The notes under the pieces were generated by a model, which was given only the letters and a program-made list of their open reading frames with translations, was not told the DNA's origin and searched no databases. Positions 1 to 31,892 of a stretch of DNA of 33,828 bases are shown piece by piece. Source of the DNA: Armatimonadota bacterium (GTDB taxonomy: Bacteria > Armatimonadota > Hebobacteria > GCA-020354555 > CP070648); contig DATLAK010000033.1 in the NCBI GenBank assembly GCA_035527535.1, forward strand, positions 1 to 33,828, in the 5' to 3' direction. The position numbers were made by a program, and so were the translations under genes. Position 1 is the first letter of the stretch, and the number at the start of each line of letters is the position of its first letter.

Positions 1-287
1 CGTGAAGCGCTCACCCAATGGGTGTGTCATCCCGAGTGGCTAAGCCCGGAGGGCCGCTGGCTAGGCCTAAAGGCCGCCATCCCGGTCTCTGACCTAGGGA
101 CACGGCGGTCGCTCCGCGACCTAGCCGCAACGCGAGGGATGCCCTACCGGGTAACGCTGCCTTCCCGTTGGGGAGGCAACGCCTTCCCAACGGGAACTGC
201 TCGCGGCTGCAATGGTTGGCCTTGGGCATCCCTGGTAGGGGATTCCTCGGTCGCGTCGCTTCCTCGGAATGACATAGCCGGAGCCTT
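1..287. repeat. Composite intergenic repeat, copy A, with two nested hairpin insertions
   Basis: This stretch matches 14400-14551 (copy B) in three blocks: 1-36, 128-151 and 198-287. Copy A carries two extra segments that B lacks. The first, 37-127, contains a GGCTAGG...CCTAGCC inverted repeat (59-126). The second, 152-197, contains facing arms around CCCGTTGGGGAGG and CCTTCCCAACGGG. The base element has facing TGTCATCCCGAG and CTCGGAATGACA sequences, so it is itself palindromic. I see no gene in it; open frames across it are repeat translations. From 288 to 383 I see nothing recognisable apart from the start region of the next gene. Confidence 0.8.
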
Positions 288-4322: not shown

Positions 4323-7088
4323 ATGGAACGCGAGACTAGGAACTACCGGGACACGCTCAACCTGCCGCGCACGGCCTTCCCCATGAAGGCCAACCTGCCG
4401 CAGCGCGAACCGGAGATCCAGGCGCGGTGGGATGAGCTCGATCTCTACGCCCGCATCCAGGCGCAGAACGCGGGGCGCGAGCAGTACATCCTGCATGATG
4501 GGCCGCCCTATACCAGCGGCGACATCCACCTCGGCCAGGCGCTCAACAAGATCCTCAAGGACATCGTGGTCAAGTTCAAGACGATGCAGGGCTACGACGC
4601 GCCGTTCGTGCCGGGGTGGGACATGCACGGGCTGCCGACGGAGATGCGGGCGCTGCGCACCTTCGACCTCGACCGCCACCAGATCGAGCCGATGGAGCTG
4701 CGGGGGCGCGCGCACGAGACCGCGGTCAAGTTCATGGAAGTGCAGCGGCGGCAGTTTCGCCGCCTGGGGGTGCGCGGCGAGTGGGAGCACCCGTACCTGA
4801 CGGTGGACCCGACCTACGAGGCCGCGGTGCTGGGCGTATTCCGCGACCTGGTGGCGCACGATGCGGTCTACCGGGGGCTGAAGCCGGTCTATTGGTGCGC
4901 GACCTGCGAGACCGCGCTGGCGGAGGCGGAGATCGAATACGCGCCGGCGACCTCGCCCTCGATCTTCGTCAAGTTCGCGCTGGTCAGCGATGTGCGCGAG
5001 CGCTTCCCCGACGCCCCCGCGGGGACGCCCGCTTACCTGGTTATCTGGACCACCACGCCGTGGACCCTGCCCGCTAACGTCGCCGTCGCCGCGCACCCGG
5101 GGTTCGAATATGCGCTGGTGCGGGCGGGCGACGAGCTGCTGGTGATGGCGGCGGAGCTGGTGGGAGCGGTGATGACGGCGGTCGGGAAAGATGGATACGA
5201 GGTGCTGGCGACGCGGCCGGGGGAGAAGCTGGAGGGCCTGCGCGCGCGCCATCCGTTCGTGGAGCGCGAGCCGGTGGTGGTGCTCGCCGACTACGTGACC
5301 CTGGAGCAGGGCACGGGCCTGGTGCACATCGCGCCCGGGCACGGCAAGGAGGACTTCGCCACCGGCCAGCAGTACCGGCTGGCGACCTTGAGCCCGCTCG
5401 ACGGGCGCGGGATTTTCACGGCGGAGGGCGGGAAGTTCGCGGGCCTGCGCTACGACCAGGCGGAGGCGCCGATCCTGGCGGAGCTGCGAGAGCGCGAGGC
5501 GCTGCTGGCGAGCGCGGAATCAGAGCATTCGTATCCCCACTGCTGGCGCTGCCACCAGCCGATCATCTTCCGCGCCACCGAGCAGTGGTTCGTGGCGGTG
5601 GACAAGTTCACGCGCGAGGCGCTGACAGCGATTGAGGGCGTGAAATGGGTGCCGCCGTGGGGGCGCGAGCGCATCGTCGGCATGGTGGCGGAGCGGCCGG
5701 ACTGGTGCATCTCGCGCCAACGGGTGTGGGGCATTCCCATCCCCGCATTCTACTGCGAGGGCTGCGGCGAGCTGCTGCTGACCCCGGAGACGGTGGAGGC
5801 GGTGCGCGCGGTATTTGCCGAGCGCGGCAGCGACGCGTGGTTCACGCTGCCGGCGGCGGAGCTGCTGCCGGCGGGCACCGCCTGCGGCGCGTGCGGCGGA
5901 ACTGAGTTTCGCAAGGAGAGCGACATCCTCGACGTGTGGTTCGATTCAGGCGCGAGCCACGCGGCGGTGCTGGAGACACGCGCCAACCTGCGCTCGCCCG
6001 CCGACCTCTACCTGGAGGGCAGCGACCAGCACCGGGGGTGGTTCCAAGCCTCGCTGTGGACCTCGATCATCGCCCGCGGGCGCGCGCCCTACCGCTGCGT
6101 GCTCACCCACGGGTTCTTCCTCGACGAGACCGGGCGCAAGATGAGCAAGTCGCTGGAGAACATCGTTGACCCCAACGCCATCGCCGAGGTCTATGGCGCC
6201 GATATCCTGCGGCTGTGGGTCGCCTACGTGGACTTCAAGTCCGACATGCCGATGTCGGAGTCCATCTTCGAGCAGGTGATCGAGGCCTACCGGCGCATCC
6301 GCAACACCGTGCGCTTCATGCTCGGCAACCTCTACGACTTCGATCCCGCGGCGGACGCCCCGGCGCCCGCCGACCTGGCGGAGGTTGACCGCTGGGCGCT
6401 GCACCGGCTGGGGGAGCTGACGGAACGGGTCACGCGCGCCTACGAGGATTTCGAGTTCCACCGCGTCTATCACGCGGTCAACGACTTCTGCGCGGTGGAC
6501 ATGTCTGCGTTCTATCTGGACATGCTGAAGGATCGCCTATATACTACCGCTGCCGGGTCGCGCGGGCGGCGCTCGGCACAGGCGGCGCTGTACGCGCTCG
6601 CGGGCGGGCTGGCGCGGCTGCTGGCGCCGATCCTGAGCCATACGGCGGAGGAAATCTGGCAGCACTTGCCGGGCGCGCACGAGGATAGCGTGCAGTTCGC
6701 GCGGTGGCCCGCGGCTGACGGGTGTGACCCGGAGTTGGGGCGCCGTTGGGAGGAGATTCTGCGCGTGCGGGAGCAGGTCAACCGCGCGCTCGAGCGCGCG
6801 CGCACGACCGGCGTGGTGGATCAGCCGCTGCACGCCGCGGTCACCATCCACGCGCCGCAGCCGCAGGCGCGCTTGCTGCGCGAGCTGGGGGACGAGCTGG
6901 CGCGAGTGCTGATCGTGTCGCAGGCCGAGGTGCGGCCGGCGGCGGAAGCGGCGGTCGAGGTGGCGGCGGCGCCGGGCGGCAAGTGTGCGCGCTGTTGGTT
7001 GGTGCAAACCACGGTGGGAGAGCAGGCGGGACATCCGTCGCTGTGCGCGCGCTGCGCCAGCGTGATCATGGGAGAGGGCGAGGCATGA
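4323..7088 (+). CDS. ileS: Isoleucyl-tRNA synthetase
   Basis: A 921-residue class Ia aminoacyl-tRNA synthetase that charges tRNA-Ile with isoleucine. The order of motifs is canonical: HGPP-type DGPPYTSGDIHLG (the HIGH region, here H69-L-G-Q72), the CP1 editing domain with WTTTPWTLPAN and HIAPGHGKEDF, DVWFDSGASH, EGSDQHRGWF, the KMSKS loop at 606-610 (GRKMSKSLEN), then the anticodon-binding domain and a C-terminal zinc knuckle (CARCW...CARC). The last residue of HIGH is Gln, which is unusual. It begins with ATG 4323, with GGGAGA just upstream, 12 bases after rmlD. The stop overlaps the next gene by ATGA, so translational coupling is likely. Length and C-terminal zinc site match bacterial-type IleRS. 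Confidence 0.97.
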   Translation: MERETRNYRDTLNLPRTAFPMKANLPQREPEIQARWDELDLYARIQAQNAGREQYILHDGPPYTSGDIHLGQALNKILKDIVVKFKTMQGYDAPFVPGWDMHGLPTEMRALRTFDLDRHQIEPMELRGRAHETAVKFMEVQRRQFRRLGVRGEWEHPYLTVDPTYEAAVLGVFRDLVAHDAVYRGLKPVYWCATCETALAEAEIEYAPATSPSIFVKFALVSDVRERFPDAPAGTPAYLVIWTTTPWTLPANVAVAAHPGFEYALVRAGDELLVMAAELVGAVMTAVGKDGYEVLATRPGEKLEGLRARHPFVEREPVVVLADYVTLEQGTGLVHIAPGHGKEDFATGQQYRLATLSPLDGRGIFTAEGGKFAGLRYDQAEAPILAELREREALLASAESEHSYPHCWRCHQPIIFRATEQWFVAVDKFTREALTAIEGVKWVPPWGRERIVGMVAERPDWCISRQRVWGIPIPAFYCEGCGELLLTPETVEAVRAVFAERGSDAWFTLPAAELLPAGTACGACGGTEFRKESDILDVWFDSGASHAAVLETRANLRSPADLYLEGSDQHRGWFQASLWTSIIARGRAPYRCVLTHGFFLDETGRKMSKSLENIVDPNAIAEVYGADILRLWVAYVDFKSDMPMSESIFEQVIEAYRRIRNTVRFMLGNLYDFDPAADAPAPADLAEVDRWALHRLGELTERVTRAYEDFEFHRVYHAVNDFCAVDMSAFYLDMLKDRLYTTAAGSRGRRSAQAALYALAGGLARLLAPILSHTAEEIWQHLPGAHEDSVQFARWPAADGCDPELGRRWEEILRVREQVNRALERARTTGVVDQPLHAAVTIHAPQPQARLLRELGDELARVLIVSQAEVRPAAEAAVEVAAAPGGKCARCWLVQTTVGEQAGHPSLCARCASVIMGEGEA

Positions 7089-21052: not shown

Positions 21053-21066
21053 GATGCAATGAGCGA

Positions 21067-21198
21067 GGGTGTGACCTCGAAAAGCGGGATTGAGGCGTGA
21101 CGCCTGGTGGCAGCTCTATTCGAGGGGCTGCTTCACCCCGACGGGTCGGGGTGCCACTCCAGCGCGCCCCGGCATCCCCACCGATGAAGGTCACACCC
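21067..21198. mobile_element. MITE-like element, copy 1 (132 bp, 8-bp target duplication)
   Basis: Begins GGGTGTGACC and ends GGTCACACCC, a 10-bp perfect terminal inverted repeat. It is flanked by ATGAGCGA (21059-21066) and GTGAGCGA (21199-21206), an 8-bp duplication with one mismatch. The left end, GGGTGTGACCTCGAAAAG, matches copy 2 (27639) at 17 of 18 bases; the interiors differ but both contain a central GC-rich hairpin. No transposase is encoded. Confidence 0.75.
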
Positions 21199-21253
21199 GT
21201 GAGCGAGTCCGGCGCACAACCGGCGCTGGGACGGTCCTTCACCGGAGCAACGC

Positions 21254-22447
21254 ATGACCAGAAGCGTGTCATTCCATCACTTCGTCGGCGGCGACCGCGC
21301 CAGCGCGATGGAGCACTTGGTGGGCGTGTTCAACGCCAGTCAATCCCAGGTCGTGGTGCGGGCGAAGGAGCTGCGAGACGGCATCAGGGATGACGCCACC
21401 GAGAGGCTGGGCCTCTTGCCGCCGTACCTGGGTAACAGCCTGCCGGAGGTAGTGATGGTCTATGCCGAGTTCATCGCCACGCTCGCGGACCAGGAGCGCA
21501 TCCGGCCGCTGGATGATTTGATCGCCGGTGCGGAGGGCATAGAGGTCTCGGACTTCGTGGACGGGGTGATGGACACGGTGCGCTACCGCGGCCACATCTG
21601 GGGGCTGCCGATCGAGGGGGATCCGCACGCTCTGTACTGCAATCGCTCGCTGCTGGAACGGGCGGGGGTGAGCGCGGCGCCCGCGACCTGGGGGGAGGTC
21701 ATGGCGGCGTCGGTCATGCTCGCCGCCGACACCGACGGGGACGGACGGACCGACCGCTTCGGCTGCAGCCACCATGCGTCTGACGTGCCCCTGCTGATGT
21801 GGCAGTTCGGGGCCGATCTCGTGAACGAGGAGCGGACGCGGATCGCCTTCGACAGCGAGGAGGGGACGCAGGCGCTGAAGTGCCATGCCGACGTGGGGGC
21901 GTGCTGCCCGGCGCACGCGGAGTTCGAGCGCGGCGACGTCGGCCTCAAGCTGGGGATGCTCGACTACTACCTGTCGGGGCGATGCGAGCATCTCGACTAC
22001 GAGATCGCGCCGCTGCCGCGGGGGCGGCGGGCGGCCAACGGTTTCGGCGGAGCGGACAGCACGCTGTGCCTGGCGCTCGCCTGCCGCGAGCGGGAATGCG
22101 AGCGAGCGGGGTGGCGCTTCCTGCGCTGGTTCACGACCCAGGAAGGGCTTATGGAGTGGGTGCGGGCGACCGGCCACCTGCCCCTGGTGGGGCCGGTGCT
22201 GGCGAGCGACGAGTACCAGGAGTTCGTCGCGCGGCGGCCCCGGCTGCATACCTTCATCAAGCAGCTCCCCGCGTGCCGTGCGCGCCCGTGCATGCCCGAG
22301 TACCCGATGATCAAGTGGGCGATTCACGCGGCCGCGCATGAAGCCCGGCAGGACGGGCGCGGCTGCACCCTGGATGAGGCGCGAGAGACCCTGCGGCGCT
22401 ACGCCGTCGAGGCGCAGGAGGCGCTCGACCGCCGGGTGAAGGTGTAG
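21254..22447 (+). CDS. Extracellular solute-binding (family 1) -like protein lacking a signal peptide
   Basis: A 397-residue protein with the fold signature of ABC sugar-binding proteins: an N-terminal beta-strand then helix (VSFHHFVGGDRASAMEHLVGVFN), LPPYLGNSLPEVVMVYAEF, YRGHIWGLPIEGDPHALYCNRSLLERAGV, TWGEV and a C-terminal WRFLRWFTTQEGLMEW...ATGHLPL. It starts directly at the mature domain. The start is fixed within 17 codons by an in-frame stop at 21200, and no hydrophobic leader or lipobox cysteine fits in between. GGAG lies 6 bases before ATG 21254. No permease or ATPase genes adjoin. It could be a cytoplasmic sensor derived from a binding protein or a gene that lost its leader. Cysteine content (for example CCPAH) is high for an exported protein. 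Confidence 0.72.
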   Translation: MTRSVSFHHFVGGDRASAMEHLVGVFNASQSQVVVRAKELRDGIRDDATERLGLLPPYLGNSLPEVVMVYAEFIATLADQERIRPLDDLIAGAEGIEVSDFVDGVMDTVRYRGHIWGLPIEGDPHALYCNRSLLERAGVSAAPATWGEVMAASVMLAADTDGDGRTDRFGCSHHASDVPLLMWQFGADLVNEERTRIAFDSEEGTQALKCHADVGACCPAHAEFERGDVGLKLGMLDYYLSGRCEHLDYEIAPLPRGRRAANGFGGADSTLCLALACRERECERAGWRFLRWFTTQEGLMEWVRATGHLPLVGPVLASDEYQEFVARRPRLHTFIKQLPACRARPCMPEYPMIKWAIHAAAHEARQDGRGCTLDEARETLRRYAVEAQEALDRRVKV

Positions 22448-22583
22448 GGCGGTCGAGCCCGGTGCCGCGGCCTCCGCATCCCCGGCGGGCGCAGGCGGCG
22501 GCGTGCTGTCGGCCGGGGACGACAGGATCGCCGCGGACGCGCCCCAAGTAACGAACCCACCACGCTGACGCCGGAGACCGCCC

Positions 22584-23579
22584 ATGAAGATCGCCTTTTT
22601 CGAGGTGCAGGACTGGGAGCGCGAGCTCATCGCGCAATCGCCGCTGGCGGACGCGACGGAGCTGTACGAGGAATGCCTCGGTGACCGATCACCACCGCCG
22701 CCGGCGAACTACGACGCCGTTTCGGTGTTCGTGTACTGCGGGATCAATCGCCAAGTCATGGAGAGCATGGCCAGCCTCAAGCTCATCGCCACGCGCTCGA
22801 CCGGCACCGACCACATAGACCTGGCGGCGGCGCGGGAGCGGGGAATCACGGTCTGCAACGTTCCCGAGTACGGCGCGAATACGGTGGCGGAGCACACCTT
22901 CGGCCTGATCCTGGGGCTGTCGCGCAGGATCTTCCTGGCGCACGACCGGGTGAGCGGGGGCGACTTTCGGCTGGCGGGACTGCGGGGGTTTGAGCTCAAG
23001 GACAAGACGCTGGGGGTGGTGGGCGCGGGGGCCATCGGCCTGCACGTGATACGTATTGCGCGAGCGTTGAGCATGGAGGTGCTGGCCTACGATGTCAAGG
23101 AGAGCGCGCTGCTGGCGGAGATCCTGGGGTTTCGCTACGCGCCGCTGGCGGAAGTGTTCGCGCAGTCGGAGGTGATCTCGCTGCACGCGCCGCTGGCGCC
23201 GGCGACCCGGCATCTCATCAACCGCAAGTCGCTGGCGACGATGAAGCGGGGGGTGCTGATAGTCAACACCGCGCGCGGGGAGCTGATTGACACGCAGGCG
23301 CTGGTGGCGGCATTGGACTCAGGGCAGGTCGGGGGCGCGGGGCTGGATGTGTTCGAGGGCGAGCAGGCGGTCAAGGAGGAGAGCGTCCTGCTGCGCGGGG
23401 AGCGCAAGCCGCCGCGGGAGCTGCGGCCGCTGCGGAGCCTGCTGGAGCGCGACAACGTGATCATCACCCCGCACATGGCGTTCTACAGCGAGGAGGCGCT
23501 GCGGCGCATCCTGGATACGACCATCGAGAACCTGGTCGCCTTCGAGCGCGGGCAGCCGCAGAACGTGGTGGGGGGGTAA
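22584..23579 (+). CDS. D-isomer-specific 2-hydroxyacid dehydrogenase
   Basis: A 331-residue NAD-dependent enzyme that interconverts 2-oxoacids and D-2-hydroxyacids, most like the D-lactate dehydrogenase branch. The Rossmann signature GVVGAGAIGLHVIRIA is followed by an acidic residue at the end of the next strand (YDVKE), favouring NAD. Catalytic residues are the Arg in NTARGELID, the Glu in DVFEGEQ and the His in ITPHMAFYS. ATRSTGTDHIDLAAARERGI and NVPEYGANTVAEH are family-typical. It starts at ATG 22584. A fragment matching its last 23 codons lies beyond the next gene at 26799-26870. Confidence 0.9.
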   Translation: MKIAFFEVQDWERELIAQSPLADATELYEECLGDRSPPPPANYDAVSVFVYCGINRQVMESMASLKLIATRSTGTDHIDLAAARERGITVCNVPEYGANTVAEHTFGLILGLSRRIFLAHDRVSGGDFRLAGLRGFELKDKTLGVVGAGAIGLHVIRIARALSMEVLAYDVKESALLAEILGFRYAPLAEVFAQSEVISLHAPLAPATRHLINRKSLATMKRGVLIVNTARGELIDTQALVAALDSGQVGGAGLDVFEGEQAVKEESVLLRGERKPPRELRPLRSLLERDNVIITPHMAFYSEEALRRILDTTIENLVAFERGQPQNVVGG

Positions 23580-23588
23580 ACAAGAGGT

Positions 23589-23672
23589 AACCGCCGATTG
23601 ACGCCGACACACGCCGATAGAACTGAAGCACTGGACAAGTTCCTTCCTATCGGTGTCCGTCGGCGTTGTCGG
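23589..23672. repeat. Periodic CGCCGAC repeat with a long imperfect inverted repeat
   Basis: Left arm GACGCCGACACACGCCGATAG (two halves, about 23601-23621) faces a right arm CTATCGGTGTCC then GTCGGCGTTG (about 23649-23670) across roughly 27 bases. It lies between the dehydrogenase and the GNAT-GH116 gene and could form a stem. The left arm is the CCGATTGACGCCGA-type repeat also seen after the dehydrogenase remnant at 26876. Confidence 0.5.
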
Positions 23673-23699
23673 GGGTTCAATCCTTGACGGAAGACGATT

Positions 23700-26600
23700 G
23701 TGGTGATAGTGATACGCGAGGCTTGCTTGGCGGACACGGGTGGGATCGCGCGGGTACATGTGGATGCGTGGCGGAGCACGTACCGGGGGATGGTTCCCGA
23801 TGAGCACCTGGCTGGTTTGTCGTACGAGAAAGCGGAGAAGGCGGCAGAGCGGAACTTCACCGAGGCCGAGACCGGATACTTCGCTTTCGTTGCGGAGACG
23901 GAAGAAGGCGAGATCGTCGGCTTCGCGAGCGGCGCGCAAGCGGCCGCGGATGACGCGCCGTTTGCGGGGGCGTTGCCGGCCATTTATATCCTGGAGGAGT
24001 ACCAACGGCGGGGGATAGGACGCCGACTCGTGCAGGCGGTTGCGCAGCGGCTGGTGGAAATGGGCATGTGCTCGATGGTGGTGGGGGTGTTGAGAGAAAA
24101 TGCGTCGCGCAGCTTCTATGAGCATCTGGGCGGTAGATTCACGGGTAGCAGGACCATTGTCATCGGCGGGCGGGAGTGCGAAGAGGTCTGTTATGGCTGG
24201 GATAATGTGATGGCGCTGGCGGCGCAGCGCCAGGCGGAATGGGACGCACACCGGCGGGAGCTCGCGTCGGAGCGGCACCTTTTCGGGCGCGGCGAAACGC
24301 GCGTCTACCGCGGCGACAACCTGACTGCCATCAGCTTTCCCGTGGGCGGCATCGGCACCGGCTGCATCCAGATGGACGGCACGGCGCGGCCGGCGGTCTG
24401 GCAGATATTCAGCAATCACCGGCAGGCGGTGGTGCCCCACAGCTTTTTCGCCGTGCGGGTGAAACCGCGCGACGGCGAACCCCTGGTGCGCGCGCTGCAG
24501 ACGACGGCGGTGGGCCCCTTGGCGGGGATGAAAGGGCTGAGCTTTCGCGGCGAGTACCCGTTCGGATGGTTCGAGTTCGAGGACCCGGAATGCCCGATCG
24601 GGGTGACGATGGAGACGTTCAATCCGCTGCTCCCGCTGGAGGCGAGAGACTCGGCGATCCCCTGCGCGGTCTTCAACCTCGCGGCTGAGAACCGCGGTGC
24701 GGACGGCATCGCCGTGAGCTTCCTGGCGAGTCAGCAAAACGCCGTTGGGTTTACCGGAGCCGAGGAAATCAGGGAGCGTTCGCACCCGCATTACGGGGGT
24801 AACCGCAACCGGGTCCTGTGCGAGAACGGCGCGACCGTCGTGCACATGACGGCGGGAAGGGACTGCGCGGCGCCCGGCTGCGGAGACATGGCGCTGGCGA
24901 CGTTCGCTGAGGCCGCGACGGCGACCGCCGCCTGGGACCGCCTCGAAGCGCTGGCGGCCGATTTCGCCGTGGACGGCGCGGTCGCGGGCCCGCAGACCGC
25001 GGGGCCTTCGCCGGGCGGGGAGACGATAGACGCGGCGCTGGCGGTGGGCTTCAGCCTGCAGCCGGGGGAGAAGAAGACGGTCACGTTCGTCCTGACCTGG
25101 CACTTCCCCGGTGCCACCCACGGAGAGGGCGCGTGGGGCGGAGCGGGCAACATGTACGCCAACTGGTGGCCCAACGCGCTTGAGGTGGCGCGCGAGCTGG
25201 GCGCACGGCTGGAGGAGCTGACGAGGCGGACGCGGCTCTATCACGACGCGCTGTACTCCTCGAACCTGCCCCACTGGCTGCTGGACCGCATCAGCTCGCA
25301 GGTGGCGATCCTGCGCAGCCCGACGTGCTTCTGGACGGGAGGCGGCTACTTCGGCGGCTGGGAGGGGTGCGGGCAATCTCAGGGCTGCTGCGCAGGGAAC
25401 TGCTCCCACGTGTGGCACTACGCGCAGGCACCCGCGCGCCTGTTCCCGCAGATCGGCCGCGTCATGCGCGAGCAAGAGCTGCGCTTGCAGACGGCGGAGG
25501 GCGGGGTGCCGCACCGCCAGTGCCCGGAGTACGGGCCGGCGTGCGATGGGCAGTGCGGGGCGATTCTCGGCGCCTACCGGGAGCACCTGCTGAGCGCCGA
25601 TTCGGGATGGCTCGACCGGTGGTGGACGCGCATCCGGAGGGCGATGGACTACGCCATCGCGACGTGGGACGCGGACGAAGACGGGGTGCTTGCGGGGGCG
25701 CAGTGGAACACCCTGGACGAGGCGCTCGGGGGGAGCTCGTCGTGGCTGGGATCGCTGTACCTGGCGGCGCTGGCGGCGGCGGAGAAGATGGCTGGACTGC
25801 AGGGGGATGAGGCGGCGGCGCGTTATCGTCACCTGCGCGAGTCGGGGGCACGCGCGCAGGACGAGACCCTGTTCAACGGCGAGTACTACGTCCAGCTCCC
25901 TGATGCGGAGGCGGGCAAGGACTACCTGACGGGCTGCCACATAGACCAGGCGCTCGGCCAGTGGTGGGCGCATCAGCTCGACCTCGGCTGGCTCTACCCG
26001 CCCGACCACGTGCGCAGCGCCTTGTCGGCGCTGGTGAAGTACAATTTCCACGCGGACTTCCGCGGCATCGCGCAGTCGCCGCGCAAGTTCGTGGCGGACG
26101 AGGACGCGGGGATGCAGATGATCACCTGGCCCCGCGGGGGGCGTCCCGACGCCGAGCAAACGACGTTCTACGCCGACGAGGTGATGAGCGGGTTCGAGTA
26201 CGCGGCGGCGGCGACGATGGTGCAGGCGGGGCTGCTGGAAGAGGGTTTGATGGTGGTGCGAGCGGTACACGACCGCTATGACGGGCGGCGGCGGGAGGGG
26301 CTGACGCCGGGGGACACGGCGTCATGGGGCTACAGCGGCAACCCGTTCGGGGACGATGAGTGCGGCAAGTTCTACGCGCGGGCGCTGAGCGTGTGGTCGC
26401 TGCTGCTCGCATGCCAGGGGTTCGTCTACGACGGGCCGGCGGGGGTCATCGGCTTCAGGCCGGTGTGGAGGCCCGAAGATCACAGGTCGTTCTTCATCGC
26501 CGCGGAGGGCTGGGGGGTGTTCGCGCAGCGGCGCGGTGATCGCAGCCAGATCGAACGCATCGAGGTGCGCCACGGCCGGCTGCGGGTGAAGACGATGGTC

Positions 26601-26762
26601 TTCGAGGTGCCGGAGCAATGGCAGGTGTCGCAGGTGACGGTCATACTCTCCGGCGCGCCGGTGCCCGCGGCGCTCACCGTTGAGGGGGGACGAGTCCGCG
26701 CTCTCCTGACCGCGGAAACAGTCGTGCGGGAGGATGAAAGCCTGGAGGTCACGCTGCGATAG
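23700..26762 (+). CDS. GNAT acetyltransferase - GH116 (GBA2-like) fusion protein
   Basis: A 1020-residue open frame with two unrelated domains. Residues 1-165 are a GNAT N-acetyltransferase: VIREACLADTGGIARVHVDAW, then the acetyl-CoA loop QRRGIGRRLV (about 102-111) and ENASRSFYEHLG. From about 190 onward it is a GH116-family beta-glucosidase/glucosylceramidase-like protein: the N-terminal domain opens with SFPVGGIGTGCIQMDG, and a C-terminal alpha-toroid includes GNCSHVWHYAQ, NTLDEAL and DEVMSGFEYAAAATM. By position D673 in NTLDEAL corresponds to the family acid/base. No signal peptide. It starts at GTG 23700. ATG 24210 (residue 171), in frame, overlaps a TGA in another frame as TGATG, so a former two-gene arrangement or an unfused second start is possible. 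Confidence 0.8.
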   Translation: MVIVIREACLADTGGIARVHVDAWRSTYRGMVPDEHLAGLSYEKAEKAAERNFTEAETGYFAFVAETEEGEIVGFASGAQAAADDAPFAGALPAIYILEEYQRRGIGRRLVQAVAQRLVEMGMCSMVVGVLRENASRSFYEHLGGRFTGSRTIVIGGRECEEVCYGWDNVMALAAQRQAEWDAHRRELASERHLFGRGETRVYRGDNLTAISFPVGGIGTGCIQMDGTARPAVWQIFSNHRQAVVPHSFFAVRVKPRDGEPLVRALQTTAVGPLAGMKGLSFRGEYPFGWFEFEDPECPIGVTMETFNPLLPLEARDSAIPCAVFNLAAENRGADGIAVSFLASQQNAVGFTGAEEIRERSHPHYGGNRNRVLCENGATVVHMTAGRDCAAPGCGDMALATFAEAATATAAWDRLEALAADFAVDGAVAGPQTAGPSPGGETIDAALAVGFSLQPGEKKTVTFVLTWHFPGATHGEGAWGGAGNMYANWWPNALEVARELGARLEELTRRTRLYHDALYSSNLPHWLLDRISSQVAILRSPTCFWTGGGYFGGWEGCGQSQGCCAGNCSHVWHYAQAPARLFPQIGRVMREQELRLQTAEGGVPHRQCPEYGPACDGQCGAILGAYREHLLSADSGWLDRWWTRIRRAMDYAIATWDADEDGVLAGAQWNTLDEALGGSSSWLGSLYLAALAAAEKMAGLQGDEAAARYRHLRESGARAQDETLFNGEYYVQLPDAEAGKDYLTGCHIDQALGQWWAHQLDLGWLYPPDHVRSALSALVKYNFHADFRGIAQSPRKFVADEDAGMQMITWPRGGRPDAEQTTFYADEVMSGFEYAAAATMVQAGLLEEGLMVVRAVHDRYDGRRREGLTPGDTASWGYSGNPFGDDECGKFYARALSVWSLLLACQGFVYDGPAGVIGFRPVWRPEDHRSFFIAAEGWGVFAQRRGDRSQIERIEVRHGRLRVKTMVFEVPEQWQVSQVTVILSGAPVPAALTVEGGRVRALLTAETVVREDESLEVTLR

Positions 26763-26798
26763 CGGCAACCGATGCTGCCGCCACCGGGTGTTGCGGGG

Positions 26799-26870
26799 AT
26801 GCTCGATGCCGGCGGCGCCGGTATCCTCGCCTGCGAGCGGGGGCAGCCGCGGAACGTGATGGGGGGATAG
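26799..26870 (+). pseudogene. Remnant of a 2-hydroxyacid dehydrogenase 3' end
   Basis: Twenty-three codons plus stop align without gaps to the end of the dehydrogenase gene (23508-23579): both read LD...A.ERGQP.NV.GG and then stop. About half the residues are identical, and similarity continues past the stop into a CCGCCGAT-type repeat. No upstream part of the gene is recognisable, so this is a truncated copy. It begins 37 bases after the GNAT-GH116 stop. Confidence 0.7.
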
Positions 26871-27049
26871 AGGTCTTAGCCGCCGATGAACGCCGAACAA
26901 GCAGGAAAGAGATTAGCCGCGTGGGAGAACGCGGCGGCTTGCCCGCCGCAGAGGGGCGCGGAGGAAAACGAGAAGAGGCTAGCCATACGCAAGAGCTGAT
27001 AAGCGCGGATGGGACGGATGGCACTGAAGAGATGGCACAGAGGGTACTC

Positions 27050-27077
27050 GTAGGGGCACGGCATGCCGTGCCCCTAC
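27050..27077. repeat. Perfect 28-bp palindrome (GTAGGGGC family)
   Basis: GTAGGGGCACGGCA is followed immediately by its exact reverse complement. It lies 57 bases downstream of the rpmB stop and might stop rpmB transcripts, though no T-run follows. Relatives are at 27867, 32119 and 33607. The rest of 26871-27133 holds a CCGCCGATGAACGCCGA repeat and purine-rich sequence without a gene. Confidence 0.9.
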
Positions 27078-27133
27078 CTGTGTCGCGCCCGGTCCGACCC
27101 CGAAGAACACCCATCAATTCATCGTTGACGCAA

Positions 27134-27361
27134 CTAGGGCCGTGTGACCTTGCCGGCCTTGAGGCACTTGGTGCAGACGCGCATGGTGCGAGAGCGCCCG
27201 TTGACGACAGCGCGGACGCTCTGCAAGTTGGGCTTCTGCCGGCGCTTCGTCCGCTTGAGGATGCGTGAGCCGGCGCCGCCCTCCTGCTTGGGCTTGCCGC
27301 GACGCGCGACGGTGTTACCGGCAAGTGGTCCCTTGCCGCAAACGGCACAGCGATGTGACAT
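27134..27361 (-). CDS. rpmB: 50S ribosomal protein L28
   Basis: A 75-residue ribosomal protein of the large subunit. It is the zinc-binding (C+) form, with CAVCGK near the N-terminus and [10 protein letters not shown] near the C-terminus. [17 protein letters not shown] is the family core. It starts at ATG 27361 with a strong AAAGGAG site 7 bases upstream. A consensus sigma-70 promoter lies about 230 bases upstream, leaving a long leader. It is monocistronic as far as seen. Confidence 0.97.
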
Positions 27362-27588
27362 CTCATTCTCCTTTGGGGCGGAGAACGAGCAGGGGTCAAG
27401 CAGAGGGCCGCCGGAATCCGCGAAGTGGTCGGCGGCTCGTGGTCAAGATCGCGTGGATGGCCCTGCCGTTGCTCCGGATAGACACGTGACATAACCCCGG
27501 CCCGCGGCAGAGGCGAGCGCAGGGAACAAAGAAGCAGGTGTGTCTATCCGCTAGTCCGGCATAGGGCCTCGCAGTGCACGGCGGTGGT
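27362..27588 (-). promoter_or_regulatory. Long structured leader (or small RNA) upstream of rpmB
   Basis: Between the predicted transcription start (about 27588) and the rpmB ribosome site lie about 210 bases without an open gene. They can fold into a rod. GCCCTGCCG (27460-27468) pairs with CGGCA/GGGC (27557-27567, two-base bulge). A 6x6 internal loop follows, then CGGATAGACAC (27475-27485) pairs perfectly with GTGTCTATCCG (27540-27550). It could be an L28 autoregulatory leader or an independent RNA such as a 6S-like RNA; I cannot decide between these. Confidence 0.35.
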
Positions 27589-27594
27589 GACCAG

Positions 27595-27623
27595 AGTATA
27601 GCCCCGCAGCGCGGAGGTGTCAA
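27595..27623 (-). promoter_or_regulatory. Consensus sigma-70 promoter for rpmB
   Basis: On the minus strand TTGACA (27618-27623), a 17-base spacer and TATACT (27595-27600) match the housekeeping consensus almost perfectly. Predicted start is near 27588. A MITE-like element begins 16 bases upstream of the -35 box. Confidence 0.8.
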
Positions 27624-27638
27624 TCAAGCGGCGGCGGG

Positions 27639-27816
27639 GGGTGTGACCGCGAAAAGTTGGTGTGAGGATCAACCCATGGAGCATGGCCGCCCCGGCCGTG
27701 TGGGCGACCCGCCTCGTCGGGTCGCCAAATGACACAGGCGAGGGCGCCTATGCTCCACGTGGGATGCACGGCGCCACCTCTCCGGTCAACTCCACCAACG
27801 AAAATCGGTCACACCC
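27639..27816. mobile_element. MITE-like element, copy 2 (178 bp, perfect 8-bp target duplication)
   Basis: Starts GGGTGTGACC and ends GGTCACACCC; the inverted repeat continues with G, a six-base mismatch and GTTGGTG on both ends, about 24 bases in all. It is flanked by GCGGCGGG at 27631-27638 and 27817-27824, a perfect 8-bp duplication. A central hairpin GGGCGACCCG/CGGGTCGCC is present. No protein is encoded, so movement would need a transposase acting in trans. Copy 1 is at 21067-21198. Confidence 0.85.
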
Positions 27817-27866
27817 GCGGCGGGCGGCGGGTGGCGAGCGCAGAAAGCGTAGACGGCGGTCGCGTT

Positions 27867-27980
27867 GTAGGGGCGGCCCGGTGTGGCCGCCCATTCCCAG
27901 CGGCTAGGCCTAAAGGTCGCCGTGGCGGTCGCTTTGCGACCTAGCCACCGAGGGCCCCGATAGATCGGGATTCGGAAACG
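27867..27980. repeat. Composite repeat: GTAGGGGC hairpin, GGCTAGG hairpin insertion, GGGCCCCGAT block
   Basis: Three parts can be separated. 27867-27892 is a hairpin with arms GTAGGGGCGGCC / GGCCGCCC. 27902-27946 is a 45-base element with arms GGCTAGG and CCTAGCC. 27952-27980 is a 29-base block, starting GGGCCCCGAT and ending CGGAAACG, that recurs at 32160-32188 with one mismatch. The related locus at 32119-32188 has the outer parts but lacks the GGCTAGG element. Confidence 0.75.
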
Positions 27981-27993
27981 GCGGTGCGACACC

Positions 27994-28680
27994 TCACCGG
28001 CGCAGGGCGGAGCGGGGGCGCCAGGAGCAGGTGACGACACCCTCGATGGCGAGGTCGCCCGGGGACATGGGGATGGCGGCGTAGGCGGGGTTGTCGGATT
28101 GGAGAGTGATGCCGTGGGGGGAGCGGCGCAGGCGCTTGAGCACCAGTTCAGATCCCACGCGGGCGATGACGATGTCGCCATCCTCCGCCGCATGCTGGCG
28201 GTGCACCGCGACATACTCGCCCTCGCGCAGGGTGGGCTCCATGGAGTCGCCGGCGATGCGCAGCGCGTAGTCGGCGTTTTCGGAGACCGCCTCGGGCAGG
28301 CGCAGCACGCCCTCGTCGCGCGGCTCGATTTCGCTCAGGGGGCCGGCGCGGATATGGCCCAGCACCGGCAGGTCAATGATGCCGGGGCGCACCTCCGCGC
28401 GCTCGACGCGAGCGCGATGCAGGGCGCGGTCAATCTGGGTTTGGGCGGCTTCCTCGCGCACGGAGTCGGGCTGCCCCTCGAGCAGACGACCCACGGGCAC
28501 CCGCAACACTTCAGCCAGCCGCACCACGGTCGCCAAGGCGGGGGTCTTGGTGCCGCGGAAGTAGGCGTGCAGGGCCTGGGGTGACACGGGCACCCGACTG
28601 GCTGCCTCGACTACGGTCAGGCCCGCCGCGCGCACCGCCGCGCGCAGCTTTTCACCGAGCAAGTTGCGGTCGAGAGGCAT
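27994..28680 (-). CDS. CI/LexA-like phage repressor (XRE HTH plus S24 autopeptidase)
   Basis: A 228-residue repressor. Residues about 8-65 form an XRE-type helix-turn-helix (AGLTVVEAASRVPVSPQALHAYFRGTKTP). The C-terminal S24 domain has the self-cleavage site A112-G113 (GHIRAGPL), the nucleophile S146 (GDSMEPTL) and the general base K182 (ELVLKRL). This is the architecture of RecA-responsive CI repressors, so DNA damage would relieve repression. It reads divergently from the terminase-containing gene series. No ribosome site precedes ATG 28680, and a TAGAAT -10-like box ends only 10 bases upstream, suggesting a leaderless mRNA as for lambda cI. The N-terminal HTH type favours a phage repressor over host LexA. 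Confidence 0.85.
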   Translation of the reverse strand: MPLDRNLLGEKLRAAVRAAGLTVVEAASRVPVSPQALHAYFRGTKTPALATVVRLAEVLRVPVGRLLEGQPDSVREEAAQTQIDRALHRARVERAEVRPGIIDLPVLGHIRAGPLSEIEPRDEGVLRLPEAVSENADYALRIAGDSMEPTLREGEYVAVHRQHAAEDGDIVIARVGSELVLKRLRRSPHGITLQSDNPAYAAIPMSPGDLAIEGVVTCSWRPRSALRR

Positions 28681-28689
28681 TGTAATGGG

Positions 28690-28695
28690 ATTCTA
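28690..28695 (-). promoter_or_regulatory. Candidate -10 box of a leaderless repressor promoter
   Basis: TAGAAT on the minus strand would start transcription near 28683, about three bases before the repressor ATG. The matching -35 position falls in the palindrome at 28701-28722 and is poor (CAAAAA). Confidence 0.35.
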
Positions 28696-28700
28696 CCATG

Positions 28701-28722
28701 AATGCAAAAATATTTTTGCATT
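28701..28722. promoter_or_regulatory. Perfect 22-bp AT-rich palindrome, probable repressor operator
   Basis: AATGCAAAAAT is followed directly by its reverse complement ATTTTTGCATT. It is strikingly AT-rich for this GC-rich DNA and lies between the repressor gene and the divergent consensus promoter. Position and symmetry suit a dimeric HTH repressor. It overlaps the expected -35 of the repressor promoter. A terminator is the alternative, since four Ts follow the right arm. Confidence 0.65.
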
Positions 28723-28736
28723 TTTTAGCGTCGCCC

Positions 28737-28765
28737 TTGACAATAGGCTCCTCAGAGTTTATAGT
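28737..28765 (+). promoter_or_regulatory. Consensus sigma-70 promoter of the rightward phage operon
   Basis: TTGACA (28737-28742), a 17-base spacer and TATAGT (28760-28765) point toward the DUF2292-like gene and the phage genes beyond. It starts 14 bases past the palindrome at 28701-28722. Confidence 0.8.
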
Positions 28766-28815
28766 AGAAACCACTGGGTGCTTCGGAGCGGCCGTGATTA
28801 ACGGGGATGGCTGGG

Positions 28816-28842
28816 ACGATACAGGCGGAGCGCCTGTATCGT
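28816..28842. repeat. Perfect hairpin in the phage leader (CAGGCG...CGCCTG type)
   Basis: Twelve-base arms ACGATACAGGCG and CGCCTGTATCGT pair around GAG. It lies in the untranslated leader between the rightward promoter and the small protein gene. The core matches other dispersed hairpins in the window (19892, 32238). Confidence 0.8.
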
Positions 28843-28915
28843 TCGCTGTAGCCCGGAGCCGCGGGACGGCTCGGAGGGATCGGCGAAAAGCATCGGCTGG
28901 GAGGAGAAAGGTAGT

Positions 28916-29086
28916 ATGGCTAAGGTATCGCCGGCGCAGCGCAAGTGGCTGTTGGAGATGACATGGGAGGAGGTCGAGCTGGTCAGGGCCTTGCGGGCCC
29001 TGAAGTACGGTCGCGTGACCGCGGTCATTCAGGATCGTCGGGTGGTGCGATTGGAAACGATGGAGCAGCGGGCCTTTAGCACCTAG
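28916..29086 (+). CDS. Small DUF2292-like protein
   Basis: A 56-residue protein (MAKVSPAQRKWLLEM...) preceded by an excellent ribosome site, GGGAGGAGAAAGG. The second half, LRALKYGRVTAVIQDRRVVRLETMEQ, resembles DUF2292/YezD-type proteins, which have a short helix, the LxYG element, a two-strand hairpin and a polar tail. Function of the family is unknown. It is the first gene behind the rightward phage promoter and is followed by a large nested stem-loop. No alternative reading is as good in this interval. Confidence 0.65.
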   Translation: MAKVSPAQRKWLLEMTWEEVELVRALRALKYGRVTAVIQDRRVVRLETMEQRAFST

Positions 29087-29113
29087 GCCCCATTTCGCCG
29101 AGCGAAGAACGCA

Positions 29114-29178
29114 GGCGAGTCATTCCGCGAAGTTCACAGCCGGGAGCGGCTGTGAATCACACGCGGAGGTGGCTCGCC
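29114..29178 (+). terminator. Nested multi-stem hairpin followed by TTTT, possible terminator
   Basis: Three stems nest inside each other: GGCGAG/CTCGCC (29114-29119, 29173-29178), CCGCG/CGCGG (29125-29129, 29162-29166) and TTCACAGCCG/CGGCTGTGAA around GGAG (29133-29156). TTTTGG follows at once. The inner hairpin belongs to the ACAGCCG repeat family. It lies between the DUF2292-like and zinc-ribbon genes. Confidence 0.45.
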
Positions 29179-29242
29179 TTTTGGTTTGGCGCTCGGCGCG
29201 CATCGTCCCCCCTTTTCCGACCAGGCACCAACGGAGGTCCTG

Positions 29243-29554
29243 ATGATTACGGAGGTCATGCGGCACGAGTTGGATTCGCGACTGGCGTCGTGGCTGGGGC
29301 TGCGGCGTTGCCCGTGGTGCGAGCAGCGGACGCTGGTCATCCACACCGCGGCGGAGCCGTGGCGCACGCGGGTGGAGCGCGGCATCACCGTCATCCGCGG
29401 CACGCCGTGGTTTCGCTGCGGCCACTGCGGCCAGGACGGAACGCTGGAGTTCCTCTACTACATCGTTTTCCCCGACGCCCCCGAGACCGAGGAGATGGAG
29501 CGCTTCCGGCACCTGTTCTCGGGCGGGGTGTGGGACCGGGAGGAAAGCCGATGA
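29243..29554 (+). CDS. Zinc-ribbon protein of the phage module
   Basis: A 103-residue protein with two cysteine pairs, RRCPWCEQ (about 22-25) and FRCGHCGQDG (about 65-68), spaced as a zinc ribbon, and an acidic C-terminus. I do not recognise a named family. ATG 29243 is chosen because GGAGG lies 6 bases upstream; longer in-frame starts lack such a site. The stop overlaps the next gene by ATGA, so both are co-translated. Position before a sigma-like HTH gene and terminase fits a small phage nucleic-acid-binding protein, but that is inference. Confidence 0.7.
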   Translation: MITEVMRHELDSRLASWLGLRRCPWCEQRTLVIHTAAEPWRTRVERGITVIRGTPWFRCGHCGQDGTLEFLYYIVFPDAPETEEMERFRHLFSGGVWDREESR

Positions 29555-30165
29555 CGCGCGCCGACACGAAGCCCCCGGCGGCGGGCACCGCGGCCGCCGA
29601 GGAGGCCGCCGACGGCTTGCTCCGCGAGACCCCAGGGGTCTATACGGCACGCCAGTTGCGCGAGAAGGCGCGGCGCGAGACGCCGGTGAGCGGTCTCGCC
29701 GCGGCTGGAGGTGAATACGCGCTCGACGCCGAGGATTGGCTAACGTTGCGCCGGCTGGGGGCGCTGCAGCGGCGCTTGCGCCTGACCATCTTCTACGACC
29801 GGCTGGATGACAGCGAGCGGCGAGTGATGATTCGCCGGCTGGATGGGGCGCGCCAGCGCGAGATCGCGGCGGAGTTGGGGGTTTCGCAGCAGCGGGTATC
29901 AAGAATCTTCGCGCGGGCGGTTGTAAAATGCCGCGATGCGTCCGCGTTATATGAAGGCAGTCCGCTGGAGGGGGAGTTCTGGTGGCAGGTGCGGGAGGCG
30001 GAAAAGTCGGTTTACCGGCGGCCCGAGCGCGTGTGGCGGCACCAGCGGGCGCCGGACCGGGCGCTGGTGCGCAGCCTGCGCGGCAAGGGCGGGAGGTTCC
30101 TGTTCTTCGTGAATGTGGAGGGAATCACCGCAGAGGCGCAGAGACCGCAGAGCAGAAAAAGGTAG
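29551..30165 (+). CDS. Sigma region 4-like HTH protein of the phage module
   Basis: A 204-residue protein. Residues about 70-130 (RLTIFYDRLDDSERRVMIRRLDGARQREIAAELGVSQQRVSRI, in part) read like sigma-70 region 4 or ArpU-type phage late regulators: a helical segment, then an HTH with EIAAELGVSQQRVS. It has GGGAGGAAAG before ATG 29551 and a 4-base overlap with the zinc-ribbon gene. The last ~14 residues (GITAEAQRPQSRKR) are encoded by a CGCAGAG-type periodic repeat that is otherwise intergenic. A role in switching on packaging/structural genes is a guess from position. Confidence 0.7.
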   Translation: MTRADTKPPAAGTAAAEEAADGLLRETPGVYTARQLREKARRETPVSGLAAAGGEYALDAEDWLTLRRLGALQRRLRLTIFYDRLDDSERRVMIRRLDGARQREIAAELGVSQQRVSRIFARAVVKCRDASALYEGSPLEGEFWWQVREAEKSVYRRPERVWRHQRAPDRALVRSLRGKGGRFLFFVNVEGITAEAQRPQSRKR

Positions 30166-30295
30166 AGGGTCATAGCCGCGGGTGAACGCGGATGAAGTCC
30201 GCCGTCGGACGCGGGCTCCGTCCACGGCGACCCTCACCGTGAGAGGGGTTGGCAGCCGGGACGGCTGCCTCACGATGACGAGGTCGGAGGGCAGG

Positions 30296-30733
30296 GTGAG
30301 ATCAGGACGCAACCACCGCTGGGAGCAGGCGATACCGCTGCTGTTGGCGGGCATGAGCAGAGAAAAGGTCGCGCAGGAGGTGGGGGTGCGCGCGGACACG
30401 ATTGAGGCGTGGCAGCGCGATCCCGATTTCTGCCGCCGCCGCCAGGAGCACCTGGAGGCCAACTTCTCGCTCGCCGCGCAGGTGCTGCGCAACTCTTCGC
30501 TGCGGGCGGTGGAAAAGCTGCTGGAGCGGGTGGAGGAGAGCGACGTCAGCGCGGCGGTGCATGTCCTGAAGGCGGTCGGCCTCTACTCCGAGCGCACGGC
30601 CGGCAAGCTGAACCATGACCACGGCGGAGAGATCGTTATCCGATGGGACGACGGCGACGCTATCGTGTCCGCCCGCGCGCCGGACGCTGACCGTCCCGTA
30701 CCGCCCCACTACAGCGCAGCGGAGGTTTCATGA
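30296..30733 (+). CDS. Small terminase subunit-like protein
   Basis: A 145-residue protein with an N-terminal HTH (AIPLLLAGMSREKVAQEVGVRADTIEAWQRDPDF) as in terminase small subunits that bind the packaging site, then a helical region (AAQVLRNSSLRAVEKLLERVEESD...AVHVLKAVGLYSERT) suited to oligomerisation. GTG 30296 is preferred: GGAGG lies 5 bases upstream. Earlier starts (30182 or ATG 30275) would translate intergenic repeats and the CAGCCGGGACGGCTG hairpin. It precedes and overlaps the large terminase by 119 bases. The family call rests on HTH plus context. Confidence 0.7.
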   Translation: MRSGRNHRWEQAIPLLLAGMSREKVAQEVGVRADTIEAWQRDPDFCRRRQEHLEANFSLAAQVLRNSSLRAVEKLLERVEESDVSAAVHVLKAVGLYSERTAGKLNHDHGGEIVIRWDDGDAIVSARAPDADRPVPPHYSAAEVS

Positions 30734-31892
30734 TTCCCGGGCGCGGTTTCGCGTCCTCGTCGCCGGGCGGCGCTTCGGGAAAACGAAGGCCGCGGTGAAT
30801 GAACTGATCCGCGCCGCCATCCGCCAACCGGGGTCACTCAACTGGTGGGTGGCGCCGACGTTCTCGATCACGCGCAAGGGGTGGCGCGAGTTGTTCGCGT
30901 TCCTGCCGGAGGAGATCATCGCCAACGTCTCGCGCACGGAGGTGATGGTGGAGCTGGTCAACGGCTCCAGCATCTGGTTCAAGTCCGCCGACAACCCCGA
31001 TTCGCTGCTCTCCGAGGGGCTGGATTTCGTGGTGGTGGACGAGGCGGCGCGGGTGAGCGAGGAGGCGTGGGGCCGCGCCCTGCGCCCCGCGTTGAGCGAT
31101 AAGCTCGGGCGCGCCGCCTTCACGGCGACGCCCGCGGGCAAGAACTGGCTCTACCGACTGTGGCTGCGGGGGCAGGACGCGCTGGACACCGAGGTTGAGA
31201 GCTGGCGCTTTGCGACCACCGACAACCCGTACATCCCGCGCGGCGAAATCGCGGCAGCGCGCAAGGGGATGGTGGAGCGATACTTTCGCCAGGAGTACCT
31301 GGCGGCGTTCGAGGATGACGTGGGCGCGGTGTTTCCGCAGGCCCGGCGGCAGGCGACGGGCGCGTTTGAGGAGCCTGGCGCGCAGGAAGTGGTAATCGGG
31401 GTTGATTGGGGCAAGCACCAGGACGCGAGCGTGTTCGTGGTGTTGGATGTCGCGCGCAACACGGTGGTGGCGCTCGACCGGCAGCTGCAGGTGGATTACA
31501 CGCTGCAGATGGGGCGGCTGGGGGCGCTGGTCGAGCGCTGGCGGCCGCGGATGATGGTGGCGGAGATGAACTCGGCGGGCGACCCGCTGGTGGAGCAGTT
31601 GCGGCGCGATCTGCCGTGCCCGGTGGAGGGGTTCCTGACCACCGCCGCCAGCAAGCGGCAGTTGATTGATGCGCTGGCGCTCGCAATTGAACGGGGAGAC
31701 ATCACTTACCCCGATGTGCCGGAGCTCGTCGGGGAGCTCGAAGCCTTCCGCTACGAGCTGACGGCGGCGGGGAATGTCCGCTATGCCGCGCCCAGCGAGC
31801 GCTATCACGATGACTGCGTGATGGCGCTGGCGCTCGCCTGGCACGCGGCGGCGCATACACGGCCGCCGGTGGTGCGGTGGCTGGGGGAGTAG
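30615..31892 (+). CDS. Large terminase subunit (packaging ATPase-nuclease)
   Basis: A 425-residue phage DNA packaging motor. The ATPase half has a Q-motif-like YRPTTAQRRFH, Walker A GRRFGKT (51-57), Walker B FVVVDEAA (D142, E143) and the coupling motif TATPAG. The RNase H-like nuclease half has GVDWGKHQDAS (D264), AEMNSAGDP and a C-terminal YHDDCVMALALA. All expected catalytic positions are present, so the protein looks functional. ATG 30615 is the only start before the ATPase core and forces a 119-base overlap with the small subunit gene, longer than usual. A 390-base repeat tract separates it from the portal gene. Confidence 0.92.
   Translation: MTTAERSLSDGTTATLSCPPARRTLTVPYRPTTAQRRFHDSRARFRVLVAGRRFGKTKAAVNELIRAAIRQPGSLNWWVAPTFSITRKGWRELFAFLPEEIIANVSRTEVMVELVNGSSIWFKSADNPDSLLSEGLDFVVVDEAARVSEEAWGRALRPALSDKLGRAAFTATPAGKNWLYRLWLRGQDALDTEVESWRFATTDNPYIPRGEIAAARKGMVERYFRQEYLAAFEDDVGAVFPQARRQATGAFEEPGAQEVVIGVDWGKHQDASVFVVLDVARNTVVALDRQLQVDYTLQMGRLGALVERWRPRMMVAEMNSAGDPLVEQLRRDLPCPVEGFLTTAASKRQLIDALALAIERGDITYPDVPELVGELEAFRYELTAAGNVRYAAPSERYHDDCVMALALAWHAAAHTRPPVVRWLGE

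Follow-up and report, generated by a model that had tools for sequence, protein, structure and literature searches.

What are the two short, similar sequences that lie between genes in an Armatimonadota bacterium, and what placed them there? The window in which they were noticed comprises positions 1 to 33,828 of contig DATLAK010000033.1. The answer involves the ends of the two sequences, their relatives elsewhere in the host genome and a decayed insertion sequence.

Two elements and the architecture of their ends

The original prediction had placed elements of 132 bp and 178 bp in the window, each bounded by perfect 10-bp inverted repeats, with near-identical 18-base left ends and flanking 8-bp direct repeats. 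The positions, the inverted ends and the flanking repeats are all as claimed (Table 1), and the left ends of the two elements are equal at 17 of 18 positions. The GCGGCGGG duplication is weak evidence by itself because it is located in a stretch rich in this sequence (GCGGCGGGCGGCGGG). The 132-bp element is intergenic, flanked by a phosphodiester-glycosidase gene on the minus strand and a solute-binding-protein gene on the plus strand. Both elements have better predicted folds than their dinucleotide shuffles: z was -2.8 over the full length of the 132-bp element and -4.5 over the inner 121 bases of the 178-bp one. A further match, at position 6720 of the window, is solitary, lies within a reading frame and has the appearance of a chance occurrence.

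Table 1. Positions of the elements, their target duplications and the copies of the palindromic unit. Window positions unless a contig of the host genome (G000) is named.
Feature	Position	Strand	Sequence or remark
Left target duplication, 8 bp	21059..21066	.	ATGAGCGA
132-bp MITE	21067..21198	+	Left end L-type (GGGTGTGACCTCGAAAAGCGGG), right end R-type (GGGTGTGACCTTCATCGGTGGG)
Right target duplication, 8 bp	21199..21206	.	GTGAGCGA; 7/8 vs left copy
Left target duplication, 8 bp	27631..27638	.	GCGGCGGG; inside GCGGCGGG-rich stretch
178-bp MITE, subfamily A	27639..27816	+	
Right target duplication, 8 bp	27817..27824	.	GCGGCGGG
Subfamily-E MITE interior, remnant without ends	27866..27983	+	From comparison with C149/C168/C84/C89 copies; split by the palindromic unit of the next row
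Palindromic unit	27902-27948		
Palindromic unit	59-126		
Palindromic unit	C65, about 34222-34268		
Palindromic unit	C192, about 5925-5967		
Palindromic unit	C92, about 55904-55950		

The true end extends beyond 10 bp. The outer block, GGGTGTGACC, is followed by a 7-nt spacer and then by GTKGGG at about positions 18-23, giving ends of about 24 bp of the form GGG...CCC. The spacer is purine-rich at one end (consensus CGAAAAG) and pyrimidine-rich at the other (TTTTCG), as judged by eye in all 18 elements listed for the genome. The opposite composition at the two ends means that on one strand the spacers are direct, not inverted, repeats. The outer GGGTGTGACC and the inner GTKGGG, both conserved, are putative binding blocks for a transposase.

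The family in the host genome

The host genome is a draft assembly of 3.24 Mb in 192 contigs. An assignment to Armatimonadota is probable, as this is the label of several of the closest relatives of a window protein. Other copies, for which a genome-wide check had been proposed, are present: GGGTGTGACC occurs exactly 62 times, compared to 2 times for the reversed control. When up to 2 of 14 positions were allowed to mismatch, the two-block end matched 162 times versus 43 in the control, and the genome is therefore estimated to contain about 60 elements. The catalogued genome stretches (285 kb) contain 18 elements, 111-311 bp long, whose 8-bp duplications match at 7 or 8 of the 8 positions, whereas no reversed-end control pair in the same stretches has such duplications. 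The 18 duplications have a G+C content of 72%, compared to 69% for the genome window, and contain no clear target motif by eye. The lengths of the elements group by subfamily (136, 142, 178, 188-311 and 129 bp), and the subfamilies have common ends but different interiors. Near-identical full copies of the 178-bp element are found at C162:6860-7037 and C92:55782-56006, the latter with a 47-bp insert, and partial copies on C110 and C177.

Empty sites were found at paralogous loci within this one genome, for two elements other than those of the window. A 135-bp element at C8:3074 is positioned between two copies of GCGGTCAC, whereas a paralogous stretch on C105 is uninterrupted and has a single GCGGTCAC. 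A 136-bp element at C176:7584 lies inside a repeat, and the copies of this repeat on C192 and C92 are free of the insert and contain a single target (TGTGGCTC and TGCGGCTC, respectively). These elements have therefore inserted precisely, with duplication of the target. Among 69 public relatives of the GH116 protein encoded in the window, none has GGGTGTGACC and none has the neighboring genes, and this set yielded no between-strain empty site.

Thus the elements are short, contain no transposase gene, share terminal inverted repeats, and have a fixed 8-bp duplication and single-target empty sites, all of which are features of MITEs. The two window sequences are members of this MITE family, that is, short non-coding DNA transposons. 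Their earlier reading as non-autonomous transposons agrees well with the genome-wide copies, the duplications and the empty paralogous loci. The family is new but of a known kind, lineage-restricted and probably fading.

An ISKra4-type transposase as the candidate driver

The ISKra4 family is group 4 of the prokaryotic Mutator-like elements and includes the ISKra4, ISMich2 and ISAzba1 groups. The original prediction did not recognize the ends as those of a named family and proposed a search for an autonomous relative; the evidence now points to ISKra4. A candidate relative with a near-identical left end is present, but it is broken. It carries the sole ISKra4-family transposase gene of the genome, found by a profile search with the NCBIfam model NF033572 on the minus strand of C65 (33896-35000). 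NF033572 is the best model. It matches in two halves (E 3.8e-33 to 7.7e-33 and 9e-24 to 3.7e-23) that meet at model position 288/289 and sum to about 199 bits; neither half reaches the curated cut-off of 205, which is set for an intact protein. The gene is divided by a palindromic unit of roughly 46 bp (Table 1), and the element has lost its 3' part.

The end-like sequence GGGTGTGACTCCAAAGAGTGGGGATGG, on the strand that carries this gene, begins at C65:35209, 17 bp upstream of the gene's longest reading frame. Given about 65 ends (up to 1 mismatch) in 6.5 Mb of strand, the chance of finding one in the 250 bp upstream of any particular gene is about 0.25%. The first 26-33 bp of the ISKra4 copy are 88-92% identical to the MITE ends. 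Past that end, the MITEs share nothing with the copy except the palindromic unit. Homology is thus limited to the ends, and the MITE interiors are not simple internal deletions of this copy. The best candidate for its right end, at C65:33779 (GGTAGTGACC), agrees at 8 of 10 positions, lacks a duplication and is unconvincing, so there is no duplication to examine at this locus.

Annotated ISKra4 elements of the cyanobacterium Tolypothrix end in GGGTGAACGAAAAAAAGTGTGGGA, which has the same architecture as the MITE ends: both start with GGGTG, after which come an AAAAG tract and another GGG block. Three of these elements have GGGTGAACGAAAAAA[AG]GTGTGGG[AG], and one is accompanied by a 9-bp duplication. 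The L-type MITE end resembles the Tolypothrix ends only modestly (shuffle P about 0.01-0.04), and the Tolypothrix elements are distant in sequence from the resident copy (tblastn E about 1 or worse). Furthermore, Tolypothrix ISKra4 has the AAAAG type of spacer at both ends, unlike the MITEs with their opposite spacers, and the MITEs, in contrast to ISKra4 elements, are non-coding and only 0.1-0.3 kb long. Prokaryotic Mutator-like elements have inverted repeats of 18-39 bp, a conserved terminal C and 8-9-bp repeats (PMC3942029). The MITEs, with ends of about 24 bp that terminate in CCC and with duplications of 8 bp, compared to 8-9 bp for ISKra4, lie within these limits.

The left end of the decayed copy, the Tolypothrix ends, the features given in PMC3942029 and the differing ends of IS256 (see below) together make ISKra4 the most likely mobilizer, as far as this can be read from the end sequences, the position of the end and the duplication length. 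Mobilization of the MITE family in trans by an ISKra4-type transposase is accordingly held with good, though not complete, confidence. Such a transposase would cut at the MITE ends, and its insertion of the element would duplicate 8 bp of the target. As the only ISKra4 copy in the assembly is decayed, the family probably has little or no mobility left in this genome.

A partner from some other family that makes 8-bp duplications (e.g. IS6, IS66, ISAs1 or ISH6), or an element that has since been lost, is an unlikely driver. The assembly is a draft and the transposase search covered five family models, which leaves some room for such a partner, but the near-identical end of the ISKra4 copy is correctly placed and oriented, and the profile models for ISL3, IS1595 and DDE_Tnp_1 transposases, tried as drivers, had no match in the genome. 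The genome stretches examined contained no autonomous element whose paired ends were 0.6-6 kb apart. A tblastn search of plasmids with the ISKra4 reading frame (default cut-off) gave no match, and no viral relatives of this reading frame were found.

Even less probable is an IS256-family transposase in place of ISKra4. IS256 elements are also of the Mutator-like type, start with GG and give 8-9-bp duplications, and a 71-bp MITE is situated about 10 bp away from the one copy in this genome. However, in each of the three IS256 elements whose ends were measured, the resident copy among them, TGTAAA[TC] forms a second block at about positions 20-26, and the MITE ends lack this block. The resident ends, GGTAGTGT...GTGTAAAC, differ from those of the MITEs; alignments of IS256 and MITE ends are weak to marginal (shuffle P 0.036-0.60), and the resident ISKra4 end aligns far better with the MITE ends than does the resident IS256 end (score 43 versus 18). 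The IS256 copy itself is located at C192:5430-6900, with ends GGTAGTGTACC...GTGTAAAC and a 9-bp duplication, GGCCCCGGG; the adjacent 71-bp MITE has no duplication. Finally, an origin in situ as regulatory hairpins, terminators or structured RNAs can be dismissed almost entirely, because, although both window copies are intergenic and fold well, the 8-bp duplications are precise, unrelated interiors lie between conserved ends, the window has no Rfam match, and the empty paralogues of the C8 and C176 sites refute any non-transposon reading for the family.

The family with its probable ISKra4 parent resembles MITEAba12 of Acinetobacter (PMC6382973), a non-coding element of about 0.1 kb that a resident insertion sequence is believed to mobilize in trans; the two are homologous only at their ends. 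MITEAba12 differs in having 16-bp ends, 9-bp duplications, ISAba12 as the parent and one AT-rich core, whereas the MITEs described here are GC-rich, have several unrelated cores and have a candidate parent that is broken.

Mosaic cores, a second repeat and distribution

The MITE interiors are mosaics of hairpin modules common to several subfamilies, and some, on C89 and C110, are chimeric. Several interiors are broken by a second palindromic repeat, which is 43-47 bp or longer and has the form GGCTAGG...CGCC[GA][TC]GGCGG...CCTAGCC, with a bulged TA in each hairpin. This unit is REP-like or PATE-like. It disrupts the ISKra4 transposase gene (between codons GAT and TGG), the IS256 transposase gene (between TGT and TGG) and a 178-bp MITE, with no obvious target duplication at its insertions. 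It is conceivable, but rather doubtful, that the MITEs are shuttles that capture and exchange palindromic modules through recombination of their cores, and that the precisely inserting 43-47-bp repeat, having broken the ISKra4 and IS256 genes, contributed to the silencing of the drivers. With its mosaic cores and nested palindromic unit, this genome can serve as a case of small-repeat build-up after the death of a transposase.

A search of 290 other genomes of the phylum did not find the two-block end, except for relic ends in the sister genus (G001). The long left end had no match in a collection of genome contigs, nor did the end pattern in a collection of viral contigs. The G001 genome has two or three unpaired MITE-like ends (C1:3052284, 1731716 and 609791) without a partner or duplication, one of which matches 20 of 20 specified bases, and the ISKra4 model NF033572 has no match there. 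The relic ends suggest an ancient presence of the MITE family; it would thus be old in the lineage and expanded only in the host genus, among the genomes searched.

Literature searches with the end sequences gave no relevant account among the matches listed, which were unrelated human, viral or plant work, and nothing was found on MITEs and insertion sequences in Armatimonadetes. For this poorly sampled lineage, the analysis gives good support for a MITE family and names a probable parent insertion sequence family. It also links MITEs to ISKra4; no ISKra4 MITE was found in the titles and abstracts of the few papers that name both.

The window has two other features of note. The reading frame at 23700-26762 encodes a fusion of a GNAT acetyltransferase domain with a GH116 glucosidase; its relatives align only from about residue 170, so the start or the fusion may be misjudged. 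The region after the second MITE, at 27994-31892, encodes an S24-type repressor, a protein with a sigma/HTH domain and the large subunit of a phage terminase, and is likely the edge of a prophage.
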